Source: Ornithinimicrobium sufpigmenti (GTDB lineage: Bacteria > Actinomycetota > Actinomycetes > Actinomycetales > Dermatophilaceae). From it: 64,000 nt of DNA. The notes beneath the pieces were generated by a model. The model saw only the letters and a list, made by a program, of their open reading frames with translations, did not search any database and was not told the origin of the DNA. Positions within the stretch are counted from its first letter, which is position 1. Every line of letters begins with the position of its first letter. The stretch spans positions 3,534,001-3,598,000 of the forward strand of contig NZ_CP036403.1 of assembly GCF_004322775.1 (NCBI RefSeq), read 5' to 3'. The translations under genes were made by a program, and so were the position numbers. Positions 1,275 through 60,818 of the stretch are shown one piece after another.

Positions 1275-2381
1275 TCAGGAGGCCGGGTAGGACCCGACCA
1301 TCTGCACGGCACCGCCGTCGACGCCCTTGGCCCCCTGGACCACCGGCGCGTCCGGCCGCGCTGCGTCCGGACCGGTCACGGAGCCCACCACCCAGGCCTC
1401 GATCCCGTGCCCGGCCAGCAGCTGGACCGCACGGTCCACGCCCTCGGGGGCGAGCACGGCGACGAAGCCGACCCCCATGTTGAGGGTCTGCTCCAGGTCG
1501 CCCAACGGCACCCGACCCAGCTCCTGCACCAGGCCGAAGACCGCCGGCGGCGTCCACGACCGCTCCACGGTCGCCAGCACGCCGACCGGCAGCACGCGGG
1601 CCAGGTTCGCCGCCAGGCCGCCGCCGGTGACGTGGGAGAGCGCGTGCAGGCCGAGGTCGGCGCGGACCACCTCGAGCAGCGGACGCGTGTAGATCCGGGT
1701 CGGCTCCAGGCACTCCTCCCCGAGGGTCCGCCCCAGCTCCTCGACGTGCCGGTCCCACTCCCAGCCGGCTGCTGCGAAGACCCGCCGCACCAGCGAGTAG
1801 CCGTTGGAGTGCAACCCCGAGGACGCGAGCGCCAGCACCACGTCGCCCTCCCGCACCCGGTGGGGGCCGAGCACCTCGTCCCGCTCCACGACACCGGTCG
1901 CGGCGCCGGCCACGTCATACTCGTCCGGGTCCAGCAGCCCGGGGTGCTCGGCGGTCTCCCCGCCCACGAGCGCGACCCCGGCCAGCTCGCAGCCGCGGGC
2001 GATCCCGGAGACGATCGCGGCGATCCGCTCCGGCACCACCTTGCCGCAGGCGATGTAGTCGGTCATGAACAGCGGCTCCGCCCCGCTGACCACGATGTCG
2101 TCCACGACCATCCCCACGAGGTCCTGGCCGATCGTGTCGTGCACGTCCATCGCCTGGGCGATCGCCACCTTGGTGCCTACCCCGTCCGTGGAGGAGGCGA
2201 GCACCGGGTGCCGCATACCCTTCAGCGCCGACGCGTCGAACATCCCCGCGAACCCGCCCAGCCCGCCGAGCACCTCGGGCCGGGTCGCGCGGCGCACTGA
2301 CTCCTTCATCAGCTCGACCGCGCGGTCCCCGGCGTGCACGTCCACCCCGGCGCTGGCATAGGTGATCGGCTGGTCGGTCAT
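1275..2381 (-). CDS. purM: Phosphoribosylformylglycinamidine cyclo-ligase
   Basis: Makes 5-aminoimidazole ribonucleotide from FGAM and ATP (purine biosynthesis, cytosol). 368 residues, near the usual length. Family motifs are intact: GGLGGFAGMFD (39-49), the ATP-binding DGVGTK (66-71), GGETAEHPG (140-148) and MGVGF near the C-terminus. The ATG overlaps the stop of the upstream transporter gene by 4 bp (ATGA), and that gene in turn overlaps purF, so all three are probably co-translated. PurF and PurM are first and fifth in the same pathway, which explains the pairing. Confidence 0.97.
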   Translation of the reverse strand: MTDQPITYASAGVDVHAGDRAVELMKESVRRATRPEVLGGLGGFAGMFDASALKGMRHPVLASSTDGVGTKVAIAQAMDVHDTIGQDLVGMVVDDIVVSGAEPLFMTDYIACGKVVPERIAAIVSGIARGCELAGVALVGGETAEHPGLLDPDEYDVAGAATGVVERDEVLGPHRVREGDVVLALASSGLHSNGYSLVRRVFAAAGWEWDRHVEELGRTLGEECLEPTRIYTRPLLEVVRADLGLHALSHVTGGGLAANLARVLPVGVLATVERSWTPPAVFGLVQELGRVPLGDLEQTLNMGVGFVAVLAPEGVDRAVQLLAGHGIEAWVVGSVTGPDAARPDAPVVQGAKGVDGGAVQMVGSYPAS

Positions 2382-3727
2382 GGGGTCCCCTCGGTCTTCG
2401 GGCGGTCGGGCGGCTCCAGGGTATGCCGTGCCGCCCTGTCGTCCTCCGCCTGGCCAGTCTCGCCTGCCTCCACCAGCTCCACCGGCTCCCCAGGCTCCCC
2501 TGGCTCCACCAGCTCCACCGGCTCCCCAGGCTCCCCTGGCTCCACCGGCTCCACCGGCTCCACTGGCTCCCCGTGCGAGCGTCCGCGGGGCGCGGCGCGG
2601 GCGGCCAGCTCCTCGAACGGTGGCGAGGGGTGGGAGCCGATCCCCTTGGCGGCCCGTACCTCCGGTGGCAGCTCGCGTCGCCAGCCCCGGACCGCGGCGG
2701 TGAGGATGCCGGCGATGGGCACGGCGAGGAACAGGCCGGGCAGACCCAGGGCGATGCCGCCGCCGGTGGAGAGCAGCAGGGTCAGCAGGGGCGGGAACTC
2801 CATGGCCCGGCTCATCAGCAGCGGGGAGAGCACATTGCCCTCGATCTGCTGGACGGCCAGGACGATGAGCAGGGCCCAGACCGCGGTCGTCACGCCGTTG
2901 AAGAAGAGGGCCACGGCCACCGCGACGGCACCGGCCAGGGTGGCGCCGATCATCGGGATGAAGCCCAGGATGAAGGTGAGCAGCGCGATGGGGACGGCCA
3001 GGGGGACGCCGAGCAGGTACAGGCCCAACCCGATGAAGATGCCGTCGACCGCGCCGGTGACGGACGAGGCGAACATCCACCAGCGGGCGGTGGTCGCCGC
3101 GTCCCGGATCGCCGCGAAGGCCGGCAGCTGCCGGCTGCCCGGGACCGCGGCGACGATGCCCTGCGTCATCGTCTTGCCGCCGACGAGCGCGAAGATGGTG
3201 GCGAAGAGCGCGACCACCACGACGGTGAGGGTCGAGCCGAGCGCGGACAGGGTGGTGCGCGCATACCCCGTCAGGCCCGCGGCGATGTCGCCGAGCCGGT
3301 TCTGCAGCTGGTTCTGGATGTTCTCGACGAACTCCTCCGGCAGCGACCAGCCGCGCTCGAGGAACCAGTCGTTGGCGGAGGTGAGGCTGCCGCCGATCGC
3401 GTCGAAGATCCGCGGCCCGGCCTCGAGCATCTGGACCAGGGTGAACCAGGCCAGGGCGCCGATCGCGGCGGCGTAGAGCGCGACGACGACCAGTGTGGCC
3501 AGCGCCCTGGGCAGGTGCCGCTCGAGCCTGCCGACGACCGGCCACAGCAGGGCGGCCTGGGTGAAGGCGATGAAGGCCGCGATCGCGATGACCGTGACCT
3601 GCAGGGTGAGCCAGATGGCCAGCAGCGCCACCGCCGCGATGAGGAGCATCCGCCACGCGAGGGTGGCCTCCATGCGCAGCCAGACCGGCCGGTTCACGGC
3701 GGCCCCCTCGGGCTCGGTGGCGGTCAC
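2378..3727 (-). CDS. AI-2E family transporter (permease) with a Gly-Glu-Pro repeat tail
   Basis: 449 residues, GTG start overlapping the purF stop (GTGA). Hydrophobic segments fit the seven or eight helices of the AI-2E/PerM family, with conserved IxGxxLxP-type sequence (EGNVLSPLLMSRAMEFPP) and a Pro/Gly-rich loop. Members export varied substrates, so the substrate here is unknown. Beyond about residue 385 comes a family-untypical 64-residue tail made of GEP/VEP/VEL triplets, encoded by tandem DNA repeats. Sitting between purF and purM with overlaps on both sides makes it translationally coupled to purine synthesis, although no functional link is known. Confidence 0.9.
   Translation of the reverse strand: MTATEPEGAAVNRPVWLRMEATLAWRMLLIAAVALLAIWLTLQVTVIAIAAFIAFTQAALLWPVVGRLERHLPRALATLVVVALYAAAIGALAWFTLVQMLEAGPRIFDAIGGSLTSANDWFLERGWSLPEEFVENIQNQLQNRLGDIAAGLTGYARTTLSALGSTLTVVVVALFATIFALVGGKTMTQGIVAAVPGSRQLPAFAAIRDAATTARWWMFASSVTGAVDGIFIGLGLYLLGVPLAVPIALLTFILGFIPMIGATLAGAVAVAVALFFNGVTTAVWALLIVLAVQQIEGNVLSPLLMSRAMEFPPLLTLLLSTGGGIALGLPGLFLAVPIAGILTAAVRGWRRELPPEVRAAKGIGSHPSPPFEELAARAAPRGRSHGEPVEPVEPVEPGEPGEPVELVEPGEPGEPVELVEAGETGQAEDDRAARHTLEPPDRPKTEGTP
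2466..2577 (-). repeat. Tandem repeats coding for the GEP/VEP tail
   Basis: Two near-identical 36-bp (12-codon) units lie head to tail at about 2466-2537, followed by degenerate 9-bp units to about 2577. The whole stretch is inside the AI-2E-family gene and in frame, giving the collagen-like Gly-Glu-Pro/Val-Glu-Pro/Val-Glu-Leu tail. Units in multiples of three bases mean copy-number change would lengthen or shorten the tail without breaking the frame. Confidence 0.85.
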
Positions 3728-5277
3728 CGTCCTGAGGTCGTCCGCCGGTCCAGCGTGCCGACGTCGGTGATGTCCACGTCGTCGTGCACCGCCGGGAACT
3801 GCAGCTCCAGCACGTCCTTGCCGAGCTGGTCGCGGCTAGGCAGCGTGATCGGGTAGTCACCGCTGAAGCAGGCCGTGCACAGCGCCGAGCGGTCCTGCTC
3901 CGTCGCCGCGACCATCCCGTCCTCGGAGATGTAGCCCAGCGAGTCGGCCCCGATCGAGGTGCGGATGTCCTCGACGGCCAGGCCGGTGGCGATGAGCTCG
4001 GCGCGGGTCGCGAAGTCGATCCCGTAGAAGCAGGGCCAGCGCACCGGCGGGGAGGAGATCCGCACGTGCACCTCCGCGGCACCCGCCTCGCGCAGCATCC
4101 GCACCAGCGCCCGCTGCGTGTTGCCGCGCACGATCGAGTCGTCGACCACCACCAGCCGCTTGCCCTTGATGACGTCGCGCAGCGGGTTGAGCTTGAGCCG
4201 GATCCCCAGCTGCCGGATGGTCTGCGACGGGGCGATGAAGGTGCGCCCGACGTAGGCGTTCTTCACCAGGCCGTGGCCGAAGGGGATCCCGGAGGCCTCG
4301 GCATAGCCGATGGCGGCAGGGGTGCCCGACTCCGGGGTGGGCATGACCATGTCGGCCTCGACCGGGTGCTCGGCCGCCAGCCGCCGGCCCATCTCGACCC
4401 GGCTGTCGTAGACCTCGCGGCCGGCGATCTTGGTGTCGGGACGGGCGAGGTAGACCCACTCGAAGACGCAGCGCTTGGGCGCCGGCTCCGCGAACCGCTG
4501 GCTGCGCAGGCCGTCCTCGTCGATGGCGATGAGCTCCCCGGGCTCGATCTCGCGCACGACCGAGGCGCCGACGATGTCCAGCGCGGCGGTCTCCGAGGCC
4601 ACCACCCAGCCGCGCTCCAGCCGGCCCAGGACCAGGGGACGGACCCCCTGCGGGTCGCGGGCGGCATACAGGGTCGTCTCGTCGCAGAAGACCAGGCTGA
4701 ACGCGCCGCGCAGCAGCGGCAGCACCCGCATGGCCGCGGTCTCCAGGGGGATGTCCGGGTCGGAGGTGAGCAGGCCAGTGACGAGCGCGGTGTCGGTGGT
4801 GTTGCCCCGGCCGACCTCGCCGCGGGAGCGGCTCAGGTCGCCGCCGAGCGTCTCGGCGAGCCGGTCGCGCAGCTCGGCGGTGTTGATGAGGTTGCCGTTG
4901 TGGGTCAGTGCGACCGTGTGGTCGTCGGTGCCCCCCAGGGTGGGCTGGGCGTTCTCCCACGAGTTGCGGCCGGTCGTGGAGTAGCGGCAGTGGCCGACCG
5001 CCAGGTGGCCGGGCAGCGAGGCGAGCGCGGACTCGTCGAAGACCTGGCTGACCAGGCCGACGTCCTTGTAGACCACGAGGCGCTGCCCGTCGCTGGTCGC
5101 GATGCCGGCCGCCTCCTGCCCGCGGTGCTGGAGGGCGTAGAGGCCGAAGTAGGTGAGCTTGGCGACCTCCTCGCCGGGGGCCCATACCCCGAAGACGCCG
5201 CAGGCGTCCTGGGGCAGACGCTCACCGGGCAGGAGGTCGTGCGAGAGCCGTCCGTCGGGTCGTGCCACGGTCCTCAT
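3724..5277 (-). CDS. purF: Amidophosphoribosyltransferase
   Basis: First committed step of purine synthesis: PRPP plus glutamine gives phosphoribosylamine. 517 residues. The N-terminal nucleophile of the glutaminase domain is Cys26 in DACGVFG, so a 25-residue propeptide is expected to be removed. The phosphoribosyltransferase domain has the PRPP loop VVVDDSIVRGNT. Cysteines in KRCVFEW, PCFYGIDF and LCTACFSGDYP match the [4Fe-4S]-type (Bacillus-like) enzymes. The start at 5277 gives a typical propeptide; the longer open frame reaching about 5706 runs through the opposite oxidoreductase gene and is not coding. Overlaps the downstream transporter gene. Confidence 0.97.
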   Translation of the reverse strand: MRTVARPDGRLSHDLLPGERLPQDACGVFGVWAPGEEVAKLTYFGLYALQHRGQEAAGIATSDGQRLVVYKDVGLVSQVFDESALASLPGHLAVGHCRYSTTGRNSWENAQPTLGGTDDHTVALTHNGNLINTAELRDRLAETLGGDLSRSRGEVGRGNTTDTALVTGLLTSDPDIPLETAAMRVLPLLRGAFSLVFCDETTLYAARDPQGVRPLVLGRLERGWVVASETAALDIVGASVVREIEPGELIAIDEDGLRSQRFAEPAPKRCVFEWVYLARPDTKIAGREVYDSRVEMGRRLAAEHPVEADMVMPTPESGTPAAIGYAEASGIPFGHGLVKNAYVGRTFIAPSQTIRQLGIRLKLNPLRDVIKGKRLVVVDDSIVRGNTQRALVRMLREAGAAEVHVRISSPPVRWPCFYGIDFATRAELIATGLAVEDIRTSIGADSLGYISEDGMVAATEQDRSALCTACFSGDYPITLPSRDQLGKDVLELQFPAVHDDVDITDVGTLDRRTTSGR

Positions 5278-6508: not shown

Positions 6509-6979
6509 TCATGCGTCGGGCAGGACCGGCAGGTATGCCGTGAGGTCGGCCCGCTGCCCCGATGCGCGCAGGGCACCGCTCGCCTCCGCGTCGGACCACG
6601 CGAGCCGGCCGGTGGCCAGCCCCAGCCAGGTCTGCGGGTCGGTCTCGACGACGTTGGTCGGGGTGCCGCGCGTGTGCCGCGGACCCTCCACGCACTGCAC
6701 GGCCGCGAACGGCGGCACCCGGACCTCGACCGAGCGCCCGGGGGCCAGGCTGGCCAGCTCCTCCAGGGTGTAGCGGACCGCGGTGGCCAGCACGGTGCGG
6801 GGCACCTCGGCCTGGGCGACGGGCGCAGCAGCCGGCCCGTCGGCCGGCCCGCCCATACCCGGTGCGTCGCCCGGCGCGCCGACCGTGGCGTCCGCCGACC
6901 CGTCCCGGGGCTGCGCGGCCAGCCAGGCGGCGACGGCCTGCTCACCGGCGGCGGGGTCGGTGCGGCGACGGGGCGGCAT
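6509..6979 (-). CDS. Sterol-carrier-family protein (actinobacterial SCP type)
   Basis: 156 residues. Family resemblance lies in the middle and C-terminal part: [15 protein letters not shown], an [12 protein letters not shown] strand, then [11 protein letters not shown] and an [14 protein letters not shown] end. These match the bacterial sterol-carrier-protein orthologues often found near purF in Actinobacteria; the ligand is unknown. An Ala/Gly/Pro-rich insertion occupies about 20-60. Ends 11 bp before the arginine deiminase stop region and is probably co-transcribed after it. Confidence 0.75.
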
Positions 6980-6990
6980 ACCGGACCGCC

Positions 6991-8223
6991 TCAGAGGGGG
7001 GCGCGCTCGATGGGGCAGGACATGCAGCGGGGGCCGCCGCGGCCGCGGCCGAGCTCTCCCCCGTCGATCTCCAGCACCTCGATGCCCAGACCGCGCAGGT
7101 AGTCGTTGGTCACGGTGTTGCGGGCGTAGGCGAGGACGACGCCCGGCTCGAGCGCCAGCAGGTTGCACCCGTCGTCCCACTGCTCGCGCGAGGCCGCGCG
7201 GGGGTCCTGGGCGGCCTGCAGGATCCGCAGCCGCTCCAGCCCCAGGGCGCGGGCGATGACCTTGTCCATGTCCTCCGGCGCATGCCGGGTGACGACCAGC
7301 TGCAGCTCGCCGTCGACCTCGTCGCCGGCGGTGAGCGTCCATGAGGGCAGGTCCGGCAGGCCGAGATAACGGGTGAAGGACTCCTCGTCGACCATCGTGA
7401 ACACCGTGTCCAGGTGCATCACGGCGCGGGCCTTGGGCATGTCCAGGGCGATGATCGTGCTCACCTCGTCGCTGGCCAGCAGCCGCCGCGCGAGCCGCTC
7501 CACGCCCTGGGCCGTGGTGCGCTCGGAGAGTCCGACGAGGACCACCCCGTGGCCCAGGACGAGGATGTCGCCACCCTCGGCCGTCGCCGGGCCCGAGTCG
7601 ATGCCGTGGCTCCACCACTGCATACCGGCCTGGGCGAACATCGGGTGGTAGCGGTAGATCGCGTCGTAGTGGACGGTCTCCCGGCGCCGAGCCTTCTTGT
7701 GCATCGAGTTCACCGCGACCCCGCCGTAGATCCACGCCGAGGTGTCGCGGGCGAAGAGGTGGTTGGGCAGCGGCGACATCAGCGCCTCGTGGTCCGCCAG
7801 CTGCTCGACGACCAGCGACTGCGGCGAGGAGATCCGCTCCAGCACCTCGGCCTTGGTGATCCCCCCGATGAGGTAGGTGGTGAGCTCGGCATCGTCCATC
7901 CCGTCGAACATCTCGCGCACCGCGCCGGCCGCCAGCGGCCCGAAGTGCCGCTCGTCCAGGCTGTGGTCGAGCACGTGGGCGCGCGCCTCCGGCACGGCGA
8001 TCGTCTCGCGCAGCAGGTCGGCCAGGTGCAGCACCTCGACCCCGCGCTGCTCCATCACCTGCACGAAGTGGTCGTGCTCCTGCTGCGCGCGCTCGACCCA
8101 GAGGATCTCGTCGAAGAGGTACTGCTCCCGGTTCTCCGGCGTGAGGCGGTGCATCTCCAGTCCCGGCCGGTGCACGATGACCCGGCGCAGCGTTCCGACC
8201 TCGTTGCCGACGTGCAGCGTCAT
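6991..8223 (-). CDS. arcA: Arginine deiminase
   Basis: Hydrolyses arginine to citrulline and ammonia (cytosol), the first step of the arginine dihydrolase route for energy and acid resistance. 410 residues, full length. Guanidino-group enzyme motifs are all present: [20 protein letters not shown] and the nucleophile Cys400 in GGPRCMSCP. No ornithine carbamoyltransferase, carbamate kinase or antiporter gene is adjacent, so the rest of the pathway must lie elsewhere or be absent. Confidence 0.96.
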
Positions 8224-8304
8224 GGTGGTCCTCTCGTCAGGTGGGTATGCCGTAGGGCCGACTCATCCTTGCACGCCCCGCGCAGACCGGACCGGCCCAG
8301 GACG

Positions 8305-8443: not shown

Positions 8444-9127
8444 TCACCCGAGCCCGAACCACGCCGCGGCCACGCCCAGACCGGCCACCACGAAGGCGAT
8501 GGCCCAGACCCGGTCCAGGTTGACCCAGTGCGTGCGCAGGATCCGCAGGCCCACCGTCTGGTAGACCAGCAGCGCGACCGCCCCGGCGGCGAACGCCATA
8601 CCGGCCGCGTGGACGAGCGCGACCTGGACCGCGGCGCCCAGGTCACCCGCGAGCGACCCGGCGTGGGCATGGTGGCCGGGGTCACCGGTGGTGTGCAGCA
8701 GCACCGGCGCCAGCATGAGCCCCGCACCGGTCACGGTGGACATGAGGAAGGACCACCAGGCCAGCTGCCAGGGCCGCAGCCGCATCCCGACCCAGCGGAA
8801 GTGGCGGGGCCGCAGCAGGAGGATCAGCCCGAAGACCAGCAGGGCCACCGTGACCACGCCCATCGCCAGGCTGCGGGAGACCTGGCTGGCGAAGAGGGTG
8901 ATGATCAGTGCCGAGGGCAGGACGGCAGCCTCGTGGCCCAGGACGATCCAGGCCAGCGAGCGCACGATGGAGCGCCGGCTCTTCTCCTGCAGCCCGTAGG
9001 ACAGGGCGAAGAGCCAGCCCATCGCGGGGTTGATCCCGTGGAACAGGCCCAGGCCGATGGAGGCGAGGAGCGCGGCGGCGTCCACGCCGGAGGCGCCGGC
9101 GTCGTGGCCGGCATGGGTGAGCAGCAT
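8444..9127 (-). CDS. Integral membrane protein, NicO/transporter-like
   Basis: 227 residues with about six hydrophobic segments. The first helix carries GLGLFHGINPAMGWLFA, a His/Asn/Pro signature reminiscent of nickel/cobalt (NicO) and related metal or urease-accessory permeases. His residues are at the N-terminus (HAGHDAG) and in a loop (GHHAHAG). The substrate is unknown and the assignment rests on motif resemblance only. It follows the SBP56-like gene on the same strand with a 56-bp gap, so the two may work together. Confidence 0.6.
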   Translation of the reverse strand: MLLTHAGHDAGASGVDAAALLASIGLGLFHGINPAMGWLFALSYGLQEKSRRSIVRSLAWIVLGHEAAVLPSALIITLFASQVSRSLAMGVVTVALLVFGLILLLRPRHFRWVGMRLRPWQLAWWSFLMSTVTGAGLMLAPVLLHTTGDPGHHAHAGSLAGDLGAAVQVALVHAAGMAFAAGAVALLVYQTVGLRILRTHWVNLDRVWAIAFVVAGLGVAAAWFGLG

Positions 9128-11154: not shown

Positions 11155-12783
11155 TCAGCGGCGGCGGCCGATGCCGAAGATCGAGCGGGTGATCTCCCGA
11201 CCGATGACGGTGCCGGCAGAGCGCAGGGCGCTCTCCATGCCCTTGCCAAGGGCGTCGCGCTGCCGCTGGCGGGCTGTGGCCTCGGCGGTGGCCTCCCGCT
11301 CGGCAGCCTTCTGCGCGGCGGCCCGCCGCTTCTCCGCCTCCTTCTCCAGCCTGTGCTCGGTGGCCAGCCGCTCCTTCTCCATCTCGGCCGCGAACGCCTC
11401 CGCCTCGGCGGCCAGGGCTGCCTGCTCCATCCGGGCCCGGAGCAGCTCGTGCGCGGACTCACGGTCCACGGGCTCGGCATACCTGCCCGCCAGCGGCGAG
11501 CCGGAGGCGAGCCTGTCCAGCACCTGCTGCGAGGCCGGCCCGATCTGTCCCTGCGGGGCACGGAGCATGGTGCGGGCCACCGGCGTCGGCGAGCCCTGCT
11601 CGGAGAGCACGGTCACCACGGCCTCGCCGGTGCGGAGGGAGGTCAGCACCTCGCCGAGGTCGTACTCGCTGGTGGGGTAGGTCGACACCGTCGCCCGGAG
11701 CGCCTTGGCGTCATTGGGCGTGTGCGCACGCAGCGCGTGCTGCACCCGGTTGCCCAGCTGGCCGAGCACGGAGGAGGGCACGTCGGTCGGCGCCTGGGTG
11801 ACGAAGAAGACGCCGACCCCCTTGGACCGGATCAGCCGCACGGCCTGCTCGACCGACTCCAGGAACGCCGGGGAGGCGTCCTTGAAGAGCAGGTGCGCCT
11901 CGTCGAAGAAGAAGACCAGGGTCGGCTTGTCGGGGTCACCGACCTCGGGCAGGTCCTGGAACAGCTCGGCGAGCAGCCACATCAGGAAGGTGGAGAACAG
12001 CACCGGCTTGTCCTGCACTCCCGGCAGCTCGAGCAGGCTGATCACCCCCTTGCCGTCGGCGCTGGTGCGCAGCAGGTCCGCGGTCTCGAACTCCGGCTCG
12101 CCGAAGAAGTCCTCGCCGCCGGCCGCGGCCAGCGCGGTGAGCTCGCGCAGGATGACGCCTGCGGTGGACCGCGCCAGGCCCCCGACCTCCTTCAGGTCCT
12201 CCTTGCCATCGTCGGAGACCAGGTGCTGGATCACCGACCGCAGGTCCTTGAGGTCCAGCAGCGCCAGACCCTGCTGGTCGGCCCAGAAGAAGACGAGCGC
12301 CAGGCTGGACTCCTGGGTCTTGTTCAGCCGCAGCACCTTGGACAGCAGGGTCGGGCCGAAGGAGGTGATGCTCGCGCGCACCGGGGACCCGGGGCCGTGG
12401 CCGCCGAGGTTGAACAGCTCGACCGGGTATGCCGTGCCCTCCCAGTCCTGCCCCAACCCGGCCATGCGCTCGGCGACCCGGCCACCGCCCTCGGCGGGCG
12501 TCGCCATACCCGTCAGGTCGCCCTTGACGTCGGCCAGGAAGACGGGGACGCCCGCGTCCGAGAGCTGCTCGGCCAGCACCTGGAGGGTTACGGTCTTGCC
12601 GGTCCCGGTCGCGCCGGCGACCAGCCCGTGCCGGTTCATCGACCCCAGGGGCAGGCGCACCGCCGCGTCGGGGACGACCTGCCCGTCGTCGACCGCGGCT
12701 CCCAGGAGGATGCTGGGGCCCTCGACGGCGTAGCCGGCGCGGATCAGGTCGATCTGGCGCGCGTTGACGCTCTCCTCGCTCAC
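11155..12783 (-). CDS. HerA/DUF853-type ATPase
   Basis: 542 residues from a GTG. Walker A GATGTGKT is at 57-64, Walker B LVFFFDEAHLLF near 290, and a DVPSSVLGQLGNRVQHALRAHTP sensor region follows. This is the DUF853 (YjgR-like) branch of HerA-FtsK ATPases: cytosolic, presumed DNA or protein translocases, of unknown role. A long Ala/Glu/Arg-rich coiled coil (about 430-520) precedes a conserved short end, RSIFGIGRRR. It is divergent from the VapB-like gene with only 24 bp between starts, so their promoters must overlap. Confidence 0.9.
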   Translation of the reverse strand: MSEESVNARQIDLIRAGYAVEGPSILLGAAVDDGQVVPDAAVRLPLGSMNRHGLVAGATGTGKTVTLQVLAEQLSDAGVPVFLADVKGDLTGMATPAEGGGRVAERMAGLGQDWEGTAYPVELFNLGGHGPGSPVRASITSFGPTLLSKVLRLNKTQESSLALVFFWADQQGLALLDLKDLRSVIQHLVSDDGKEDLKEVGGLARSTAGVILRELTALAAAGGEDFFGEPEFETADLLRTSADGKGVISLLELPGVQDKPVLFSTFLMWLLAELFQDLPEVGDPDKPTLVFFFDEAHLLFKDASPAFLESVEQAVRLIRSKGVGVFFVTQAPTDVPSSVLGQLGNRVQHALRAHTPNDAKALRATVSTYPTSEYDLGEVLTSLRTGEAVVTVLSEQGSPTPVARTMLRAPQGQIGPASQQVLDRLASGSPLAGRYAEPVDRESAHELLRARMEQAALAAEAEAFAAEMEKERLATEHRLEKEAEKRRAAAQKAAEREATAEATARQRQRDALGKGMESALRSAGTVIGREITRSIFGIGRRR

Positions 12784-13827: not shown

Positions 13828-14187
13828 ATGGACAGCTACCCGTCAGTGCCGCCTCCCCCACCACGGCCCGGTATGGCGCCGCCCGAGCCGACGGCGCCGT
13901 GGCGACCGCCCCCTCCCCAGCCCGTCGAGCACCCTCAGGCCACGACGGTCATGCTCCTCGGCGTGCTGAGCATCGCCGGATTCTCCTTCCTCGGCCCCGT
14001 CGCCTGGACCATGGGGCGTCGAGCCCTGGCGCAGGCGGACGCCGCCCCGTTCCCGACCGCCAACCGCTCGGTGCTCGAGACCGGGACCAGACTCGGACGC
14101 TGGGGCACCTACATCCTGGTCGGCACGGTCGCACTGATCATGCTGGCCGTCGTCGCGGTCGTGGTGCTGGAGGCGACCGCCCGGTGA
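13828..14187 (+). CDS. DUF4190-like small membrane protein
   Basis: 119 residues: a Pro-rich cytosolic N-terminus (about 1-38) and two helices (about 40-58 and 90-112) separated by a loop containing WTMGRRALAQ, the common GxxxxxxGxxAL-type pattern of DUF4190. Function unknown. The start ATG was chosen at MDSYPSVPPPPP because Pro-rich N-termini begin this way in the family; the open frame extends upstream without a better start. Confidence 0.75.
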   Translation: MDSYPSVPPPPPRPGMAPPEPTAPWRPPPPQPVEHPQATTVMLLGVLSIAGFSFLGPVAWTMGRRALAQADAAPFPTANRSVLETGTRLGRWGTYILVGTVALIMLAVVAVVVLEATAR

Positions 14188-19126: not shown

Positions 19127-19194
19127 CGGCGGGGGCTGGGCCGGCGGGGGCCGGCGGCGTCGGGCGCGGCGCACCGCATACCTAGAATGCCGCC

Positions 19195-19862: not shown

Positions 19863-20056
19863 GCGAAGTCCGGTGCGTAGGAGCGAGCCGCAAGAGCGCC
19901 GGGGCGCGACACCGGCCACGCCGGCCGCAACAAGGGTCCTAGTCGCGCGGATCGAACCGGCGCGGACCGCGCCCGGCCACTACCCTGAGGGCGATCGTCG
20001 TCGCGGCCGACGGAGGGCGCACGGCATACCCCGGACAGCACGAAGGAGTGGTGAGC

Positions 20057-22726: not shown

Positions 22727-24552
<1,826 letters not shown>

Positions 24553-50676: not shown

Positions 50677-50720
50677 GGGTCTCCTGTCGGTATGCGGTGC
50701 GGTGGGACGGTGTCGCGGGG

Positions 50721-51731
50721 TCAGTCAGGCGCGTCAGCCTGGTGGGCCTCGTCAGTCTGGTCGGTCGCGTCGGGGTAGCGGACGAGGTGGCACAGCCCCG
50801 GCTCCCCCGCCGCCAGCCGCCGCATGAGGCCGGGGAGCTCCTCGAACGGTGTGGGCCCGGCGAGCAGGTGGTCGAGGGCGGGGTTGCGGGCGGCGCGGAG
50901 CGCGACCTGCATGCGGTCGGCGTAGTCGCGGGCGGGGCGGTGCGGGCTGACCCTGCTCACCTGGCTGGCGCGGATCGCCAGCCGTTGCGTGTGGAAGGTG
51001 GTGCCGAGCGCGACGGTGACGGGGGTGGTGCCGTACCAGGACAGCTCGACGACCTCCCCCTCCCGGCCCAGCAGCCCCAGCGCGGTCTGCAGTCCGGCCT
51101 GGGTGGCGGAGGCGTGGAAGACCACGTCGCAGTCACGGCTGGCGTGCTCGGGTGCGACCCCCGTGGCGCCCAGCTCCCCCGCCAGGGCTCGCCGGGCGGG
51201 GTCGGTCTCGACCAGCTCCAGGCGGTTGAGCGGGAGCTGCCCGAGCAGCGCGGTGACGCTGGCGCCGACCATGCCGGCACCGACGACGGCGACCCGGTCG
51301 CCGTAGAGCGGCCGGCCGTCCCAGAGCGCGTTGACCGCGGTCTCGAGCGTGCCGAGCAGCACGGCCCGCTCGTCGGGGACGTCGTCGGGGAGGGCGGTGA
51401 GCGCGGTGACGGGCACGACATACCGGTCCTGGTGGGGGTGCAGGCAGAAGACGCGGCGGCCCACCCACTCCGGCTCGCCGTCCTCGACGACGCCGACGGA
51501 GAGGTAGCCGTGCTTGACCGGGCCGGGCAGCTCGCCCTCCTCGAACGGTCCCGCGACCTGGTCGGCCACCTCCGGGGGCACCTCGCCGCGGTGCACGAGC
51601 AGCTCGGTACCGCGGCTGACCCCGGAGACGACGGCGCGCACGAGGGCCTCGCCGGGGCCGGGCGGGGCGAGCGGCTGGGTGCGGATCTCGCCGGTGCCGG
51701 GGCCGACGGTCCAGTACGCGCGTGCCTGCAT
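50721..51731 (-). CDS. Medium-chain (zinc-type) dehydrogenase/reductase
   Basis: 336 residues. GroES-like part includes SGVSRGTELLVHRGEVP; the nucleotide-binding part includes VAVVGAGMVGASVTALLG. Structural and catalytic zinc cysteines of alcohol dehydrogenases are mostly absent, so it is closer to zinc-free or atypical members found in biosynthetic clusters. First gene of the operon with the PTPS-like protein and glycosyltransferase; it may reduce or oxidise a side chain of the pterin-like product. Confidence 0.85.
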   Translation of the reverse strand: MQARAYWTVGPGTGEIRTQPLAPPGPGEALVRAVVSGVSRGTELLVHRGEVPPEVADQVAGPFEEGELPGPVKHGYLSVGVVEDGEPEWVGRRVFCLHPHQDRYVVPVTALTALPDDVPDERAVLLGTLETAVNALWDGRPLYGDRVAVVGAGMVGASVTALLGQLPLNRLELVETDPARRALAGELGATGVAPEHASRDCDVVFHASATQAGLQTALGLLGREGEVVELSWYGTTPVTVALGTTFHTQRLAIRASQVSRVSPHRPARDYADRMQVALRAARNPALDHLLAGPTPFEELPGLMRRLAAGEPGLCHLVRYPDATDQTDEAHQADAPD

Positions 51732-51840
51732 CAGGCCATTCTCACCAGCGGTGATGCATCGTGTCCGACCGGGTCGGTGCAGGTCCGGGCATGAGGGGGG
51801 TATGGCGTGGGCCGAGCGACGCCGTCGAGCAGGTGCGACG

Positions 51841-52938
51841 TCAGCGCGCTGCGCTGGGGAAGGCGTCGCGGTAGGAGCGCCAGGTCCCGGCCGGTGTCGT
51901 GACGCTCTCGGCGCCGAGCATGGCCCGCACGATCGCCCGGGTGACGACCTCGCCGACGGCGTGCAGCATCTGGTGGAAGGTGGCTGGGTCCGGCGCCGTG
52001 CTCTGCGCGGTGGACAGGCCGAAGAGGGTGTCCCCGTCGAACATCGTGTGGATCGGGCTGACTGCCCGTGCCATCCCGTCGTGCCCTGAGCCCGCCAGCC
52101 GGGCGCACTGGGCCTTGGTCAGGGTCGCGTCGGTCGCGACGACGCCGATGGTCGTGGCGAGGGTGCGGGGCATGGCGCCGGCGGCATTCGCCTCGGCGGC
52201 GGCCCGGCGCGAGGCCTCCAGGTCCTCGGGGTGCGGTCGACCGGGCAGGGTGCCGTCCGGCCAGCCCGGTATGCCGTGGACGTCAGCCTCCAGCAGGTGC
52301 CGTGCGCCCCACATCTCACCGGTCGCGGGGTCGACCGCGGACCCGGCGGCGTTGACGACGACCAGGGCGGCGACGGTGACCGCGCCGCCGATCACGACGC
52401 TTGCCGAGCCGACACCGCCGCGCAGCCCGCCGGTCTGGGTGCCGGTGCCGGCTCCGACCGAGCCCTGCGCCAGCGCCGGGTGCTCGTCGGCTGCCTGGGC
52501 CTGCAGGGCGGCGGCACAGGCGGCCTCCCCGAAGTCGGCGCCGGGGAAGGTGCCGAAGTCCCCGCCGCGCCCCAGGTCGAAGACGACGGCGCCGGGCACG
52601 ATCGGGACCACCTGGCCGGGTCCACCCATGGGGAAACCGCGCCCCTCGGCATACAGGTGGCGCATCACCCCGTCGGCGCTGGCCAGGCCGAACGCGGAGC
52701 CGCCGGTGAGGGTGACGGCGTGGACGCGCTCGACCATGTTGCGCGGGTCAAGCAGGTCGGTCTCGCGCGTGCCCGGCCCCCCGCCGCGCACGTCGACTCC
52801 CCCGACCGCACCCTCGGGTGGTGCGAGCACGACGGTGGTGCCGGTGAGCCACCCGTCGCCGGTGCGCTGGTGGTGGCCGACGGCCAGTCCGGTGACGTCG
52901 GCGAGGTCGTTGCGCGGGCCTGCGTTCCACGTGTCCAT
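51841..52938 (-). CDS. P1-family (S58) aminopeptidase/amidase
   Basis: 365 residues. DmpA/P1 family features: DLADVTGLAVGHHQ at the start, GTTVVLAPPEGAVGGVDVRGGGPGTRETDLL, AVTLTGGSAFGLASADGVMRHL and QTGGLRGGVGSAS near the self-cleavage site that yields alpha and beta subunits. Hydrolyses N-terminal residues or amides; substrate unknown. An ATG three codons earlier is an alternative start. Divergent from the frameshifted gene downstream. Confidence 0.9.
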   Translation of the reverse strand: MDTWNAGPRNDLADVTGLAVGHHQRTGDGWLTGTTVVLAPPEGAVGGVDVRGGGPGTRETDLLDPRNMVERVHAVTLTGGSAFGLASADGVMRHLYAEGRGFPMGGPGQVVPIVPGAVVFDLGRGGDFGTFPGADFGEAACAAALQAQAADEHPALAQGSVGAGTGTQTGGLRGGVGSASVVIGGAVTVAALVVVNAAGSAVDPATGEMWGARHLLEADVHGIPGWPDGTLPGRPHPEDLEASRRAAAEANAAGAMPRTLATTIGVVATDATLTKAQCARLAGSGHDGMARAVSPIHTMFDGDTLFGLSTAQSTAPDPATFHQMLHAVGEVVTRAIVRAMLGAESVTTPAGTWRSYRDAFPSAAR

Positions 52939-55188: not shown

Positions 55189-56230
55189 CGTCGACCCCCG
55201 CCGGGTGGAAGCAGGCGTACCCCGACGCGGTCTCCCCGGCCGGGTGGTGACCGCGAGGAGTCCAGGGCGGGCGGGTACGGCATACCTCGGTGGCGTGGGT
55301 GCAGCGGGTGCGGAAGACGCACCCTTCGGGGAAGCCGCCCGCCGGCGGCACGGTCCCCGGGATGGTGGGCAGGGCGGCCCGGGCGTGGCGGGCTCCGTCG
55401 GCGCAGGAGAGGTCGCTCGCCGCGATCAGGCCCTGGGTGTAGCGGTGCCGCGGGTCGGTGAAGATCTGCGCGACGGGACCGGCCTCGACGATGCGGCCGC
55501 CGTACATCACGAGCACCCGCTCGCAGACCGTGGCCACCACCGCCAGGTCGTGGGTGATGAAGAGCATCGCCGCGTCGCGCGCCTGCACCCCGCGCACGAC
55601 GAGGTCGAGCACGGTGGCCTGCACGGTGACGTCGAGCGCGGTCGTCGGCTCGTCGCAGATGAGCAGCGCCGGGTCGTTGGCGAGGGCGATGGCGAGCACG
55701 ACCCGCTGGCGCTGACCACCGGACAGCTCGTGCGGGTAGGCGCGAAAGATGTGGGCGGGTTCGGGCAGACCGACCTGGTCGAGCAGCTCGACCGCCCGCT
55801 GCCGGGCCTCGGTCCGCGAGCGCGTGCCGTGGATGGTCATCACCTCGGCGACCTGGGCCCCGACCCGCATCGTGGGGTTGAGCGCGGTCATCGGCTCCTG
55901 GAAGACCATCGACATCGCGTCGCCGCGCAGCTTGGCCATCTCCCGCTCGCCGACCGTGAGCAGGTTGCGCGTGGCGGGGGTGCGCCCGCACAGCCGCACG
56001 TCGCCCTCGGCGTGCAGGCCCTCCCCCAGCAGCCCCATGACCGCCAGCGCGGTCAACGACTTGCCGGACCCGGACTCACCGATCAGCCCGACCCGTTCGC
56101 CGCGCCGGATCGTGAAGGTCACGTCGTGCAGCAGAGGGGTATGCGGCGTGCCGACGTCCAGCCCGCTCACCTCCAGCACGGGCGGGGCGTCTGCTCGCTC
56201 GGCGGTCGGCGAGGTGCTCACCGTGGTCAC
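55181..56230 (-). CDS. Oligopeptide ABC transporter ATP-binding protein (DppD/OppD type)
   Basis: 349 residues, GTG start. Walker A GESGSGKSL, VFQEPMTALNP, LSGGQRQRV, LLICDEPTTALDVTVQ and HDLAVV are all intact. The C-terminal oligopeptide-transporter extension carries the cysteine cluster CVFRTRC...C...C that binds an Fe-S cluster in some family members. Partner of the DppF-like protein, but separated from the permease genes by unrelated genes. Confidence 0.94.
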   Translation of the reverse strand: MTTVSTSPTAERADAPPVLEVSGLDVGTPHTPLLHDVTFTIRRGERVGLIGESGSGKSLTALAVMGLLGEGLHAEGDVRLCGRTPATRNLLTVGEREMAKLRGDAMSMVFQEPMTALNPTMRVGAQVAEVMTIHGTRSRTEARQRAVELLDQVGLPEPAHIFRAYPHELSGGQRQRVVLAIALANDPALLICDEPTTALDVTVQATVLDLVVRGVQARDAAMLFITHDLAVVATVCERVLVMYGGRIVEAGPVAQIFTDPRHRYTQGLIAASDLSCADGARHARAALPTIPGTVPPAGGFPEGCVFRTRCTHATEVCRTRPPWTPRGHHPAGETASGYACFHPAGVDDG

Positions 56231-56290: not shown

Positions 56291-56617
56291 CTACTTCGGC
56301 GGCAGTGCCCGCGCCGTCGCCGTCCCACGGTCGACGACGGCGCACAGCTCGTCCGCTGTGGTCAGCCCGGCCGTATCGACGTGCAGCCATCCGGTCATCA
56401 CCCGGTCCCCCATGACCTGCTCCCGCACGTGGCCGCCGACCTGCGCCTCGCCCGTGCCCGGCTCGATGCGGAACATGAGGCCGTCCTCGCCCACCGCCAC
56501 GGCCATGTGGTCCGCGAGCAGGAACGCCAGACCGCCGAACATCTTCTTCTCGGTGACGTCGGCCTCGTCCCGCAGCAGGTCACGGACCCGCTGGGCCAGC
56601 TCCTCGTCATACGCCAT
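56291..56617 (-). CDS. TfoX N-terminal-domain protein
   Basis: 108 residues. TfoX_N pattern: MAYDEELAQRVRDLL, VTEKKMFGGLAFLLADHMAVAV and GWLHVDTAGL. In gamma-proteobacteria the longer TfoX/Sxy turns on competence genes; single-domain actinobacterial versions are of unknown role. It sits in the segment that splits the ABC operon. Confidence 0.88.
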   Translation of the reverse strand: MAYDEELAQRVRDLLRDEADVTEKKMFGGLAFLLADHMAVAVGEDGLMFRIEPGTGEAQVGGHVREQVMGDRVMTGWLHVDTAGLTTADELCAVVDRGTATARALPPK

Positions 56618-56650
56618 GGAGGGAGTATGCCGCGCGCGCCGGCCCTGCGC

Positions 56651-57359
56651 TCACCCTCGCCGGGCGACGGCGAGCAGGTGTGGGCTGGCCTCGGCGACTG
56701 CGTCACGGTGGGCGGCGATCCGTGCGGGGTCCTCGCCTGCGCTTGTGGTCAGGACGGCGTCCAACCGGTCGGAGACCCGGTGGCAAGTTCCTGCAGCTCG
56801 GGGTCGTCGGCGACCGCTCCAGCGCACCGACGTGGGGCCCCTCGACCCCGTGCACCTCGACTTCCTCGAAGCCGGCCTCCTCCACCTCGGCGCGCAGCTC
56901 GGCCACGGTGTGGAAGTGCCCGCCGGGGAAGCCGCCCGCGGTGCTGGCCCACTCCCCGGTCCGCAGGATGTGCAGGTCGGCGGTGCCGAGGGCCTCGAAG
57001 CCGCTCCTCGTCGCGGCCTCGGCGAAGGCGGTCAGCCGGCCGATGCCCTGGGCGAAGAGCAGTCCGCCAGGGACCAGGACCCGTCGCGCCTCCGCGAGCG
57101 CCCGCAGGCGGTGCTGCCTGCTGATCAGGTGGTACAGCGGGCCGAGCAGGAGCACCGCGTCGAGGGACCCGTCGTCATGGCACAGGTCGCGCGCATCACC
57201 GACGGAACGGGTCGTGATCCTGGTGTCCTCGTCGACGTGGTCGGCGTAGTAGGACAGGATCGCCGCGTCCAGCACATCCTGGGCCGGCACGGTGGCGTCG
57301 TCGCCGCTCCCGAGCGAGGTCGCGCCCTCGTCAACGCCTCCGGGTGAGGCGGACGTCAT
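56651..57359 (-). pseudogene. Decayed SAM-dependent methyltransferase
   Basis: From ATG 57359 the frame reads ILSYYADHVDEDTRI, a normal methyltransferase start, then jumps straight to SVGDARDL...AVLLLGPLYHL: the roughly 50 residues carrying the SAM-binding VLDxGGGTG motif are missing in frame. Later two separate 1-nt deletions (near GAGCGGTCG and GCCACCGGG) break the reading. Restoring both gives VADDPELQELATRVSDRLDAV and a natural end at 56651. Three independent lesions make it a true pseudogene. The start overlaps the UPF0045 gene (ATGA). Confidence 0.85.
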
Positions 57360-57673
57360 ACCCCGTCGCCGGGCGCCTGGCCCAGATGCTCGCGCACCCG
57401 GTCGACCTTGCCCTGCAGCTGCCCGGTGAAGCCGGGGCGCAGGTCGGCCTTGAGGACCAGGGAGACGCGGGGGCCGTGCGCGGCGACGGCGTCGCAGGCG
57501 GCCTTGATCACCGGCATGACCTCGTCCCACTCACCCTCGATGGTGGTGAACATGGAGGTCAGCTCGTAGGGCAGCCCGGAGTCCTGGACCACCTTGATGG
57601 CGTCGGCGACGGCCGCGCTGACCGAGCCGGACTCGTCGGAGGCGGAGGGGGCGACGGAGAAGGCGAAGAGCAT
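57356..57673 (-). CDS. UPF0045/MTH1187-family thiamine-binding-like protein
   Basis: 105 residues. YqgV/MTH1187 pattern: MLFAFSVAPS, VSAAVADAIKVVQDSGLPYELTSMFTTIEGEWDEVMPVIKAACDAV, VSLVLKADLRPG. Relatives bind thiamine or its precursors; the role here is not shown. Translationally coupled to the decayed methyltransferase and divergent from the F420-type oxidoreductase (46 bp). Confidence 0.88.
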   Translation of the reverse strand: MLFAFSVAPSASDESGSVSAAVADAIKVVQDSGLPYELTSMFTTIEGEWDEVMPVIKAACDAVAAHGPRVSLVLKADLRPGFTGQLQGKVDRVREHLGQAPGDGV

Positions 57674-57719
57674 GGGTCCACCGTATGCGGTCCTCGAGGC
57701 CGCGGGTCAGACTGAGGCC

Positions 57720-58652
57720 ATGGACCTGCGCATCTTCACCGAGCCCCAGCAGGGGGCGACCTACGACGACCAGCTCCGCCTCGCGCGGACCGCGGAGGAC
57801 AGCGGCTTCGGCGCCTTCTTCCGCTCCGACCACTTCGTCGCGATGGGCCGGGAAGGCCTGCCGGGTCCGACCGACTCGTGGGTGACGCTGGGAGCGCTGG
57901 CCCGCGAGACGAGCACGATCCGGCTGGGGACGCTAGTCACCTCGGTCACCTTCCGGCACCCGGCGCTGCTCGGCGTCAGCGTGGCCCAGGTCGACCAGAT
58001 GAGCGGTGGGCGGGTCGAGCTGGGGCTGGGCGCAGGGTGGTTCGAGGCCGAGCACGCGGCGTATGGCGTGCCCTTCCCCGACGCGCGGGGCCGGTTCGAC
58101 CTGCTCGAGGACGCACTGGAGATCATCACCGGGATGTGGGCGACGCCGGAGGGGGAAAGGTTCAACCACGAGGGGAAGGTGGTGACGGTCAAGGACTCGC
58201 CAGCCCTGCCGAAGCCGGTGCAGCAGCCGCGGCCGCCGATCGTCATGGGCGGTGGTGGCAAGAAGCGCACGCCGGCGCTGGCGGCGCGGTTCGCCGACGA
58301 GTTCAACATGGCCTTCCCGACGATGGAGGCCACGGTCGCGCAGTTCGCGCGCGTCGACGACGCGTGCCGGGCGGTCGGGCGGGAGCCCTCGGAGCTGCTG
58401 CGCTCGGTGGCGCTGGTGGCGTGCGTCGGCCGCGACGACGCGGAGGTCCGCCGTCGGGCGGACGCGATCGGACGGGACGTCGACGAGCTGCGGGCCAGCG
58501 GTCTGGCCGGGACGCCCGCCGAGGTCGTCGAGCGGCTCGGGCAGTGGCGTGAGGAGACCGGGGCCGAGCAGTACTACCTGCAGATGCTCGACATCGGCGA
58601 CCTCGGGCACACCGAGCTGGTGGCTGCCGAGGTGGTGCCCCAGCTGGGGTGA
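57720..58652 (+). CDS. LLM-class F420-dependent oxidoreductase
   Basis: 310 residues. DLRIFTEPQQGATYDDQLRLARTAEDSGFGAFFRSDHF, LGTLVTSVTFRHPALLGVSVAQVDQMSGGRVELGLGAGWFEAEHAAYG and VMGGGGKKRTPALAARFADEFN match F420-dependent relatives of luciferase common in Actinobacteria. Substrate unknown. It is the only plus-strand gene in this transporter region and is followed by a tandem-repeat block. Confidence 0.9.
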   Translation: MDLRIFTEPQQGATYDDQLRLARTAEDSGFGAFFRSDHFVAMGREGLPGPTDSWVTLGALARETSTIRLGTLVTSVTFRHPALLGVSVAQVDQMSGGRVELGLGAGWFEAEHAAYGVPFPDARGRFDLLEDALEIITGMWATPEGERFNHEGKVVTVKDSPALPKPVQQPRPPIVMGGGGKKRTPALAARFADEFNMAFPTMEATVAQFARVDDACRAVGREPSELLRSVALVACVGRDDAEVRRRADAIGRDVDELRASGLAGTPAEVVERLGQWREETGAEQYYLQMLDIGDLGHTELVAAEVVPQLG

Positions 58653-58774: not shown

Positions 58775-59719
58775 TCAGCGGTGCTGGAGCTTGGGGTCGA
58801 GCCAGTCGCGGAGGCCGTCGCCGAAGAGGTTGAAGCCGAGCACCGACAGGGCGATCGCGGCGCCGGGAATGAGTGCCAGGTGCGGCGCGGCGCGGAGGGT
58901 GGTCTGGGCCTCGTAGAGCATCCGGCCCCAGGAGGCCTGGCCGGTCGGGGTCCCGAGCCCGAGGTAGGCCAGGGCGGCCTCGGCCAGGATCGCGATCGCG
59001 AACGACACCGAGGCCTGGACGATGACCAGCCCGGCGACGTTGGGCAGGACGTGGCGCCAGGCGATCCCCCACGAGGAGCGACCGGCGGCCCGGGCGGCCA
59101 CGACGTACTCCGTGCGCATCACGCCCAGGGCTCCCGAGCGGGTGACCCGCGCGAAGGCCGGGATCGTGGCGATCCCGATCGCGATCATCGCCACGCGGGT
59201 CGAGCCGCCGTAGAGCGCGGCGAACATGATCGCCAGCAGCAGCGCCGGGAACGCCAGCAGCACGTCGTTGCCGCGCATGACCAGCTGGCCGAGCCAGCCG
59301 GGGGACATCGCGGCCAGGATGCCGAGCGGCACGCCGACGACGGCGGCGACGCCCACGGCGACCAGACCGACATACAGGGTGGTGCGGGCGCCGACGAGGA
59401 TCTGGGTCAGCACGTCCCGGCGCAGCCGGTCGGTGCCGAGCCAGTGCTCGGCGTTGGGGGTCTGGTAGGGGTCGACGGGCAGCACCCGCATCGGTGGGTA
59501 GGGCGTCCAGACGTAGGAGATCAGCGCGAGCACGACCACGGCGAGGACGATCGAGCCGCCGATGATCAGGGCGGGGTTGAGCCGGGCCAGCCGTCGGCGC
59601 CGCGACCCGGCCTGACCGGTCGGCTCCGCACCAGCACCGCCGGGCGGCCCGCCGGCAGCCCCGTCACCCACCGGGCCGGAGCGACCTGGGGTCGGCAGTC
59701 CCTGCAGCGCCTCGCTCAT
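58775..59719 (-). CDS. Oligopeptide ABC transporter permease (DppC type)
   Basis: 314 residues. A Gly/Pro-rich cytosolic start, helix at about 50-72, then five more and the EAA-like loop VVAARAAGRSSWGIAWRHVLPN that contacts the ATPases. AEAALAYLGLGTPTGQASWG is conserved. The ATG overlaps the DppB-like stop (4 bp). Confidence 0.93.
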   Translation of the reverse strand: MSEALQGLPTPGRSGPVGDGAAGGPPGGAGAEPTGQAGSRRRRLARLNPALIIGGSIVLAVVVLALISYVWTPYPPMRVLPVDPYQTPNAEHWLGTDRLRRDVLTQILVGARTTLYVGLVAVGVAAVVGVPLGILAAMSPGWLGQLVMRGNDVLLAFPALLLAIMFAALYGGSTRVAMIAIGIATIPAFARVTRSGALGVMRTEYVVAARAAGRSSWGIAWRHVLPNVAGLVIVQASVSFAIAILAEAALAYLGLGTPTGQASWGRMLYEAQTTLRAAPHLALIPGAAIALSVLGFNLFGDGLRDWLDPKLQHR

Positions 59720-60660: not shown

Positions 60661-60757
60661 TGGATCAGGGTATGCGGTGCCTTCCCGCCCACTCACCGCG
60701 ATCAGGTATGCGGCGTCCCACCGCCCGGACCGCGATCAGGTATGCGGTGCCTCGCGC
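60661..60757. repeat. Three degenerate direct repeats with GATCAGGTATGCGG core
   Basis: GATCAGGGTATGCGGTGCC, GATCAGGTATGCGGCG and GATCAGGTATGCGGTGCC occur at about 35-bp spacing between the binding-protein and permease genes. Each contains the GGTATGCGG form of the genome-wide 9-mer. Confidence 0.8.
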
Positions 60758-60763
60758 CCACCG

Positions 60764-60818
60764 ACTGCTGCACCTGTGCACGGCATACCGCAGAATTCTG
60801 TGCACGGCCGCAGCATTC
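60764..60818. repeat. Imperfect inverted repeat, TGCTGCGCCTGTGCACG family, copy 2
   Basis: TGCTGCACCTGTGCACGG and CTGTGCACGGCCGCAGCA pair imperfectly around GCATACCGCAGAATT; the whole element aligns with 19806-19862. It lies between the lipoprotein gene and the permease genes, where it could attenuate permease expression relative to the binding protein. Confidence 0.7.

Follow-up and report, generated by a model that had tools for sequence, protein, structure and literature searches.

Introduction

DNA uptake words are attributed, in the passages drawn on here from papers on the topic, to two proteobacterial families, the Pasteurellaceae and the Neisseriaceae, and the passages used from a 2023 paper cite them for Pasteurellaceae and Neisseria, with none reported in mycobacteria (PMC10526031). 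According to excerpts of the respective papers, neisserial uptake words lie 1,150-1,500 bp apart, matching conversion tracts (PMC2397512), and occur as eight Neisseriaceae dialects round a fixed CTG core (PMC3630211); the uptake signal sequences (USS) of Pasteurellaceae have a spacing of ~1 kb (PMC7811141), and uptake by Haemophilus influenzae does not depend on how the strongest site in the fragment is oriented (PMC1939737). Within the actinobacteria, Micrococcus luteus has comEA, comEC, and dprA, and its transformation requires comEC and the tad genes (Flp/Tad), as described in the part of that study consulted (PMC4322843). The present study concerns a window of 64,000 nucleotides of Ornithinimicrobium sufpigmenti, of the family Dermatophilaceae in GTDB (C1:3534001-3598000 of a genome of 4,169,359 bases in one contig), in which a 9-bp word, GGTATGCSG, is over-represented on both strands. 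Our analyses suggest that this word is probably a DNA uptake sequence of the kind known from Neisseriaceae and Pasteurellaceae, and that it would be read on single strands. Among the matches listed from the open-licence literature there was no report of an uptake word in actinobacteria, and none of the string GTATGCCG, the 8-mer in which the word was followed across the family.

Results

Exact-match scanning of the window found GGTATGCCG/CGGCATACC 22 times (9 forward, 13 reverse) and GGTATGCGG/CCGCATACC nine times (6 forward, 3 reverse). These are the copy numbers given by a sequence-only reading of the window, whose 22 coordinates hold to within 3 bases, save for the copy placed at 14750, which lies at 14741. 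That reading had also named enrichment limited to the window as an outcome that would speak against it; GGTATGCSG occurs 629 + 628 = 1,257 times across the whole genome, and the reversed pattern 8 + 16 = 24 times. In a genome sample of 1.664 Mb, made up of the window and 80 stretches of 20 kb taken from all round the chromosome, a third-order Markov model predicts 16.9 copies of GGTATGCCG and 12.9 of GGTATGCGG, where 412 and 123 are observed; counts at the Markov level are thus ruled out, and the proposal of selection or bias on the word as DNA is supported. The over-represented word as first described is, however, part of a broader unit. Single-base-neighbour tables show the true core to be the degenerate GTATGNVG, a graded, asymmetric, protein-like motif in ~30-fold excess, in which GTATG is near-invariant, the next base is free with C best, the one after follows C>G>A with T very rare, and G closes the core; weaker preferences extend to the flanks, for G in front and for T and G behind. 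The sample holds 1,227 GTATGNVG sites, or 0.74 per kb, at a mean gap of 1,193 bp; with 611 on the forward strand and 616 on the reverse, the claim of roughly equal strands is borne out. Forward and reverse sites are close to balance in each of 14 bins round the chromosome, with no replication-strand bias, no skew towards the terminus of the type seen with FtsK-orienting polar sequences (KOPS), and no strong density trend, and spacing is more even than random over most of the chromosome. The earlier argument that lack of strand bias speaks against a KOPS- or Chi-like polarity signal therefore holds round the whole chromosome, and both forms of polarity are rejected by this orientation balance.

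The arrangement of the sites follows a rule of orientation. In the genome sample, 746 pairs of neighbouring GTATGNVG sites are oppositely oriented and 402 share an orientation, a difference that none of 2,000 shuffles reached. Same-strand pairs occur at 0.27-0.71 of expectation below 600 bp and at 0.67-0.83 at 600-1,200 bp, reaching ~1 beyond, and opposite-strand pairs scatter round or above expectation at the same distances; orientation alternates, therefore, because sites on the same strand exclude each other below ~1.2 kb and sites on opposite strands do not. The same alternation was found in 400 kb of G040, a genome of another genus picked for its high count and low control (163 opposite, 76 same); pooling 19 same-genus loci gave 130 to 73, and G290 gave 30 to 13. 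Sites were too few to judge in G159 (11 to 6), four named Serinicoccus loci (19 to 14), G276 (13 to 10), and G282 (8 to 6). Every one of eight control words had fewer opposite than same neighbours, and in a second set of five control words two had more opposite neighbours, GTATCNVG (32 to 15) and GTACGNVT (77 to 71). Divergent pairs at 50-100 bp number 23 in the sample where 11 are expected. There is no excess of inverted pairs under 50 bp in that sample, and terminator-like inverted pairs are accordingly rejected; one-sided directional uptake is rejected as well, pairs within 1.2 kb showing no consistent difference between convergent and divergent (297/339 in O. sufpigmenti, 56/46 in G040).

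A toy drive model, with parameters set by hand, gave 1,052 opposite and 535 same neighbours, with exclusion on the same strand only, if a fragment was favoured when that strand itself holds a site; if either strand counted, it gave 530 opposite and 522 same, with exclusion on both strands. The per-strand spacing suggests that the reader of the word acts on a single strand, over pieces of roughly 1-3 kb. One-strand reading of this kind agrees with the strand that enters in transformation, and would agree as well with a strand-specific enzyme of repair or resection.

The word is not confined to one context. By a crude GC-based gene prediction on the genome sample, 1025 GTATGNVG sites are coding, 164 non-coding, and 38 at edges, giving 0.70 sites per kb of predicted coding DNA and 0.82 per kb elsewhere. 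The sequence-only reading had placed copies in both kinds of DNA and in different frames; this stands, six of six reading frames being used, with the qualification that sites favour the coding strand by 604 to 421, largely in the Tyr-Ala frame. Its further claim, that the word forces rare codons, is borne out for ATA, of which 144/322 codons in predicted genes (45%) lie inside the word, and for TAT (375/780, 48%), and is weak for GCA (108/3728). In predicted genes the word overrides codon choice. Conservation was followed in alignments among 19 same-genus loci and two O. sufpigmenti stretches, in which pairs share rows and counts are non-independent: where rows align at 80-84% identity, a site is unchanged in 42% of cases and remains a site in 55%, compared with 29% identical for other 8-mers, and at 72-76% identity the corresponding figures are 22%, 33%, and 16%. 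Sites are thus kept more often than other 8-mers; they are favoured, though subject to turnover.

The word is depleted in mobile-looking DNA, in a small sample of two 20-kb stretches and 8 kb of prophage ends. Two of the 80 stretches, C1:364001-384000 (L016) and C1:884001-904000 (L026), are without any site, where the mean is 14.5. L026 encodes a TrwC relaxase with primase, and two T2SSF genes were found among six proteins tested in L016; both stretches are possibly integrated mobile elements, a status that for L016 is deduced rather than marked by such a gene. The 8 kb of prophage ends, which lie inside comEC, also hold zero sites.

Much of the family carries the word, in dialects. GGTATGCSG is present at 277 to 1,452 copies in 23 of 24 same-genus genomes (Ornithinimicrobium/Serinicoccus, O. 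sufpigmenti included) and at 36 in the other, G022; 14 genomes of other families hold 5 to 77. GTATGNVG stands out only in this family among 248 genomes of the order, and none of 229 genomes of other families, judged by eye and with only GTATGNVG sought outside the family, was enriched above ~1.7 times the control. In word-rich genomes the control is itself inflated, since its mirror image includes GGTATG. Within the family, GTATGCCG is carried by 31/59 genomes, with 939 to 4,724 copies, 2.5 to 39 times the reversed control (G236 is counted at only 2.5x). When over-represented words were sought in 40 kb of each of ten genomes without GTATGCCG, GTACGCCG emerged in G300 and G159 and GGATGCCG in G290, each the same 8-mer with one base changed, and the other seven gave no clear dialect in their 40 kb. 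GTACGCCG is found in 6/59 genomes (G300 3,903; G308 2,618; G288 2,216; G159 1,359; G314 1,125; G284 752) and GGATGCCG in 4/59 (G290 3,949; G282 3,816; G304 2,195; G258 1,336), G304 carrying two dialects, with 1,217 copies of GTATGCCG beside its 2,195 of GGATGCCG. By thresholds set after the counts were seen, 40/59 family genomes carry a dialect and 19/59 carry none; borderline cases are G313 (GTACGCCG 539, 5.0x control), which was left out, G278 (GGATGCCG 827, 6.6x), counted under GTATGCCG, and G258 (GTACGCCG 488, 5.6x), counted under GGATGCCG. On a ComEC tree of 48 rows, a gene tree with weak forks and long branches, the dialect labels need 15 changes, where shuffled labels need 21.8; GTATGCCG and GTACGCCG cluster (as few changes in 2 and 1 of 500 shuffles) despite repeated switches, and GGATGCCG is unclustered, its 4 changes being the same as in shuffles. 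The sequence-only reading had not noticed the degeneracy of the core, nor the dialects or the rule of orientation.

Candidate machinery was surveyed in the same 59 genomes. ComEC is found in 56, with or without the word, and the three without a match (G293, G296, G297) are fragmented assemblies, all word-bearing; ComEC presence as the cause of the word is rejected, since the two do not track. A PilM-type pilus as the reader is likewise rejected, PilM being nearly absent. T2SSF offers a weak lead only: at most two matches were found in 6/19 word-less and 3/40 word-bearing genomes, those three being 75-84% complete.

The window holds 67 GTATGNVG sites, listed here from the pattern scan, with the two 9-bp forms named where they occur.

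1913..1920, minus strand, GTATGNVG site
2211..2219, minus strand, GGTATGCGG
2420..2428, plus strand, GGTATGCCG
4662..4669, minus strand, GTATGNVG site
6532..6540, plus strand, GGTATGCCG
6974..6982, minus strand, GGTATGCCG
7618..7625, minus strand, GTATGNVG site
8244..8252, plus strand, GGTATGCCG
8594..8601, minus strand, GTATGNVG site
11475..11483, minus strand, GGTATGCCG
12426..12434, plus strand, GGTATGCCG
12502..12509, minus strand, GTATGNVG site
13871..13878, plus strand, GTATGNVG site
14741..14749, plus strand, GGTATGCCG
15568..15575, plus strand, GTATGNVG site
16309..16316, minus strand, GTATGNVG site
17419..17427, minus strand, GGTATGCCG
17911..17919, plus strand, GGTATGCCG
19174..19182, minus strand, GGTATGCGG
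20022..20030, minus strand, GGTATGCCG
21378..21386, plus strand, GGTATGCGG
22317..22324, minus strand, GTATGNVG site
23641..23648, plus strand, GTATGNVG site
23926..23933, plus strand, GTATGNVG site
26607..26614, plus strand, GTATGNVG site
26797..26805, minus strand, GGTATGCGG
27960..27967, plus strand, GTATGNVG site
30245..30252, plus strand, GTATGNVG site
30917..30925, minus strand, GGTATGCCG
33366..33374, minus strand, GGTATGCCG
34200..34207, plus strand, GTATGNVG site
34469..34476, minus strand, GTATGNVG site
35063..35070, plus strand, GTATGNVG site
35600..35607, minus strand, GTATGNVG site
36200..36207, plus strand, GTATGNVG site
36963..36970, plus strand, GTATGNVG site
37046..37053, plus strand, GTATGNVG site
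37390..37398, minus strand, GGTATGCCG
37579..37586, plus strand, GTATGNVG site
38910..38917, plus strand, GTATGNVG site
39320..39328, plus strand, GGTATGCCG
40877..40885, minus strand, GGTATGCCG
41301..41308, plus strand, GTATGNVG site
41601..41608, plus strand, GTATGNVG site
47045..47053, minus strand, GGTATGCCG
47920..47928, minus strand, GGTATGCCG
49479..49487, plus strand, GGTATGCCG
50181..50189, minus strand, GGTATGCCG
50689..50697, plus strand, GGTATGCGG
51416..51423, minus strand, GTATGNVG site
51800..51807, plus strand, GTATGNVG site
52268..52276, plus strand, GGTATGCCG
52647..52654, minus strand, GTATGNVG site
55278..55286, minus strand, GGTATGCCG
56138..56146, plus strand, GGTATGCGG
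56605..56612, minus strand, GTATGNVG site
56625..56632, plus strand, GTATGNVG site
57354..57361, minus strand, GTATGNVG site
57683..57690, plus strand, GTATGNVG site
58061..58068, plus strand, GTATGNVG site
59368..59375, minus strand, GTATGNVG site
60669..60677, plus strand, GGTATGCGG
60705..60713, plus strand, GGTATGCGG
60739..60747, plus strand, GGTATGCGG
60781..60789, minus strand, GGTATGCCG
62872..62879, minus strand, GTATGNVG site
63710..63717, plus strand, GTATGNVG site

The longest site-free gap of the window is 5.4 kb (41609-47044). At 60669-60789, beside an oligopeptide-binding protein gene, four words lie inside 121 bp; intervals of 36 and 34 bp separate three of them, which sit in imperfect repeats, one 19-bp repeat being exact. 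A second over-represented word in the genome sample is CTCGCGCAG (248 observed, 55 expected), the TCGCGCAG part of which clusters in the same orientation.

Discussion

Likeness to two known systems and the failure of the rivals that could be tested lead us to infer that the process behind the word is DNA uptake, the candidate that the sequence-only reading had listed among others and that is here favoured over RecBCD-Chi and over PF01555 methyltransferases. In the mechanism we propose, a natural-transformation protein of the pathway around ComEA and ComEC would prefer DNA strands with the word, possibly recognizing one strand, for example the entering strand, and Tad/Flp pili would be the likely DNA-capturing fibre, as in Micrococcus luteus. 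Site-bearing fragments from kin would then be taken up and recombined more often, and, such fragments being favoured, copies arising by mutation would spread (molecular drive); the drive would continue until most stretches of ~1-3 kb held one site per strand. The wider claim, that this is a third, independently evolved uptake-word system and, as far as literature searches show, the first in Gram-positive bacteria, family-wide, with at least three single-base dialects, single-strand recognition, and its own regular ladder of sites on each strand, is one to which we give an even chance.

Several observations weigh against an uptake word read on single strands. Sites would be spaced in the same way by a repair or recombination signal that acts per strand, and in the strand-specific toy model the same-strand exclusion below 300 bp (0.04) is stronger than in the data (0.3-0.7). 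Alternation is absent in G300, which has the GTACGCCG dialect (41 opposite, 36 same), although GTACGCCG is almost palindromic, so strand may be blurred there; within the window alone alternation is modest (43 to 23, reached by 20/2000 shuffles), and for the window's 31 strong sites it is not significant (18 to 12). As to machinery, ComEC is found regardless of the word and so does not discriminate, and the classical type IV pilus marker PilM occurs in only 3/59 family genomes. Moreover, comEC of O. sufpigmenti, which adjoins comEA (SLBB + helix-hairpin-helix), is split by a prophage-like insert of ~40 kb, C1:1161311-1201280 (from L031 17311 to L032 5280); uptake may thus be off at present in this genome. 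A large serine recombinase sits at the junction, and the insert further has a phage-type repressor and gives a weak match to an endolysin.

The insert recalls prophages sitting in competence genes of other bacteria. Split comEC matches are seen also in G017 and G309. In G014 (L104) ComEC is without a central part of its membrane domain, and in G022 (L111), which alone among the 24 same-genus genomes lacks the word, the reading frame of comEC diverges from that of its relatives and stops ~100 bp short of a contig end.

The reader need not belong to transformation. An end-resecting nuclease-helicase, AdnAB or another, could read the word on one strand as a Chi-like recombination signal, each strand needing a site every 1-2 kb, and the asymmetry of the word and its per-strand spacing would fit such a strand-specific reader. 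RecC, the Chi reader of E. coli, is patchy in the family and anti-associated with the word, being found in 9/40 word-bearing but 12/19 word-less genomes (Fisher p 0.004, uncorrected for kinship). Chi itself behaves in the opposite way: in 500 kb of E. coli MG1655 from one half of the chromosome, 93/127 copies lie on one strand, and same-strand pairs within 1.2 kb number 37 where 23.6 are expected, so that Chi clusters. The present word is without replichore bias. RecBCD-Chi is rejected on these two grounds, and a Chi-like signal in the broader sense is, in our view, unlikely. A little less likely again is a mark kept by a DNA methyltransferase, whether a HIP1-like methylation word or a strand-discrimination mark for mismatch repair. 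A word-level bias in coding and non-coding DNA would suit it, dialects could follow methyltransferase specificity, and a one-strand mismatch-repair mark would also be spaced per strand; the methyltransferase family surveyed, PF01555 (N6/N4), does not, however, track the word (16/40 word-bearing, 9/19 word-less), and flanks graded beyond the core are unlike a typical methyltransferase site.

The genome-wide occurrence of the word, with spacing more even than random over most of the chromosome, could instead reflect binding of a nucleoid or chromosome-organizing protein. This we regard as improbable, given the lack of any orientation trend or strong density trend round the chromosome and a spacing kept separately on each strand, with opposite strands independent, which such a protein would not be expected to impose; the 30-fold excess and the single-base dialects in sister genera suggest drive instead. 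That the word is a by-product of composition or codon usage has a negligible chance and is rejected: 412 copies stand where the Markov model allows 17, the reversed control gives 24 to the word's 1257, nearly half of the rare codons ATA and TAT lie inside the word, and the word is found in non-coding DNA too.

If the word is indeed an uptake sequence, then self-specific DNA uptake would have evolved again in a Gram-positive setting with a different machine, and gene exchange in the family would be gated by a word that differs between genera. There would also be a practical handle, in that DNA tagged with the word could be used for their transformation. The rule of per-strand spacing can be tested as a statistic, and its application to Neisseria and Haemophilus would show whether recognition by strand is a general feature.

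Other described systems resemble the present word in part. Campylobacter recognizes its own DNA by methylation, a different principle. E. coli Chi is, like the present word, short, asymmetric, and over-represented, but it is strand-biased and clusters on the same strand, and its reader RecC does not track our word. HIP1 (highly iterated palindrome 1) of cyanobacteria is over-represented in coding and non-coding DNA, a likeness to the present word, but HIP1 is a palindrome, whereas our word is asymmetric, graded, and spaced per strand. The USS word of Pasteurellaceae differs from the one described here. The meningococcal DNA uptake sequence (DUS), ATGCCGTCTGAA, shares ATGCCGT with the best form of the present word; the neisserial core CTG is not shared, so this common stretch may be a coincidence. 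The USS, as the passages used here describe it, has in common with our word a spacing of ~1 kb and no orientation bias (PMC7811141, PMC1939737), and differs in that orientation of the strongest site in a fragment is reported to be without effect on uptake by H. influenzae (PMC1939737), whereas here the strands are spaced separately. The DUS of Neisseriaceae differs in that the present word belongs to another phylum and Gram type, in a family where a PilM-type pilus was not found in 56/59 genomes; our word shows no excess of inverted pairs under 50 bp, despite its divergent pairs at 50-100 bp, and is spaced separately on each strand, a spacing not met for DUS in the literature passages drawn on. 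The DUS, which is read by the minor pilin ComP, nevertheless shares with the present word, on the evidence of those passages, a density of ~1 copy per kb, no orientation bias, an asymmetric word, a fixed core round which the dialects of different genera vary by single bases, and under-representation in acquired DNA (PMC3630211, PMC2397512, PMC1939737, PMC7371117).

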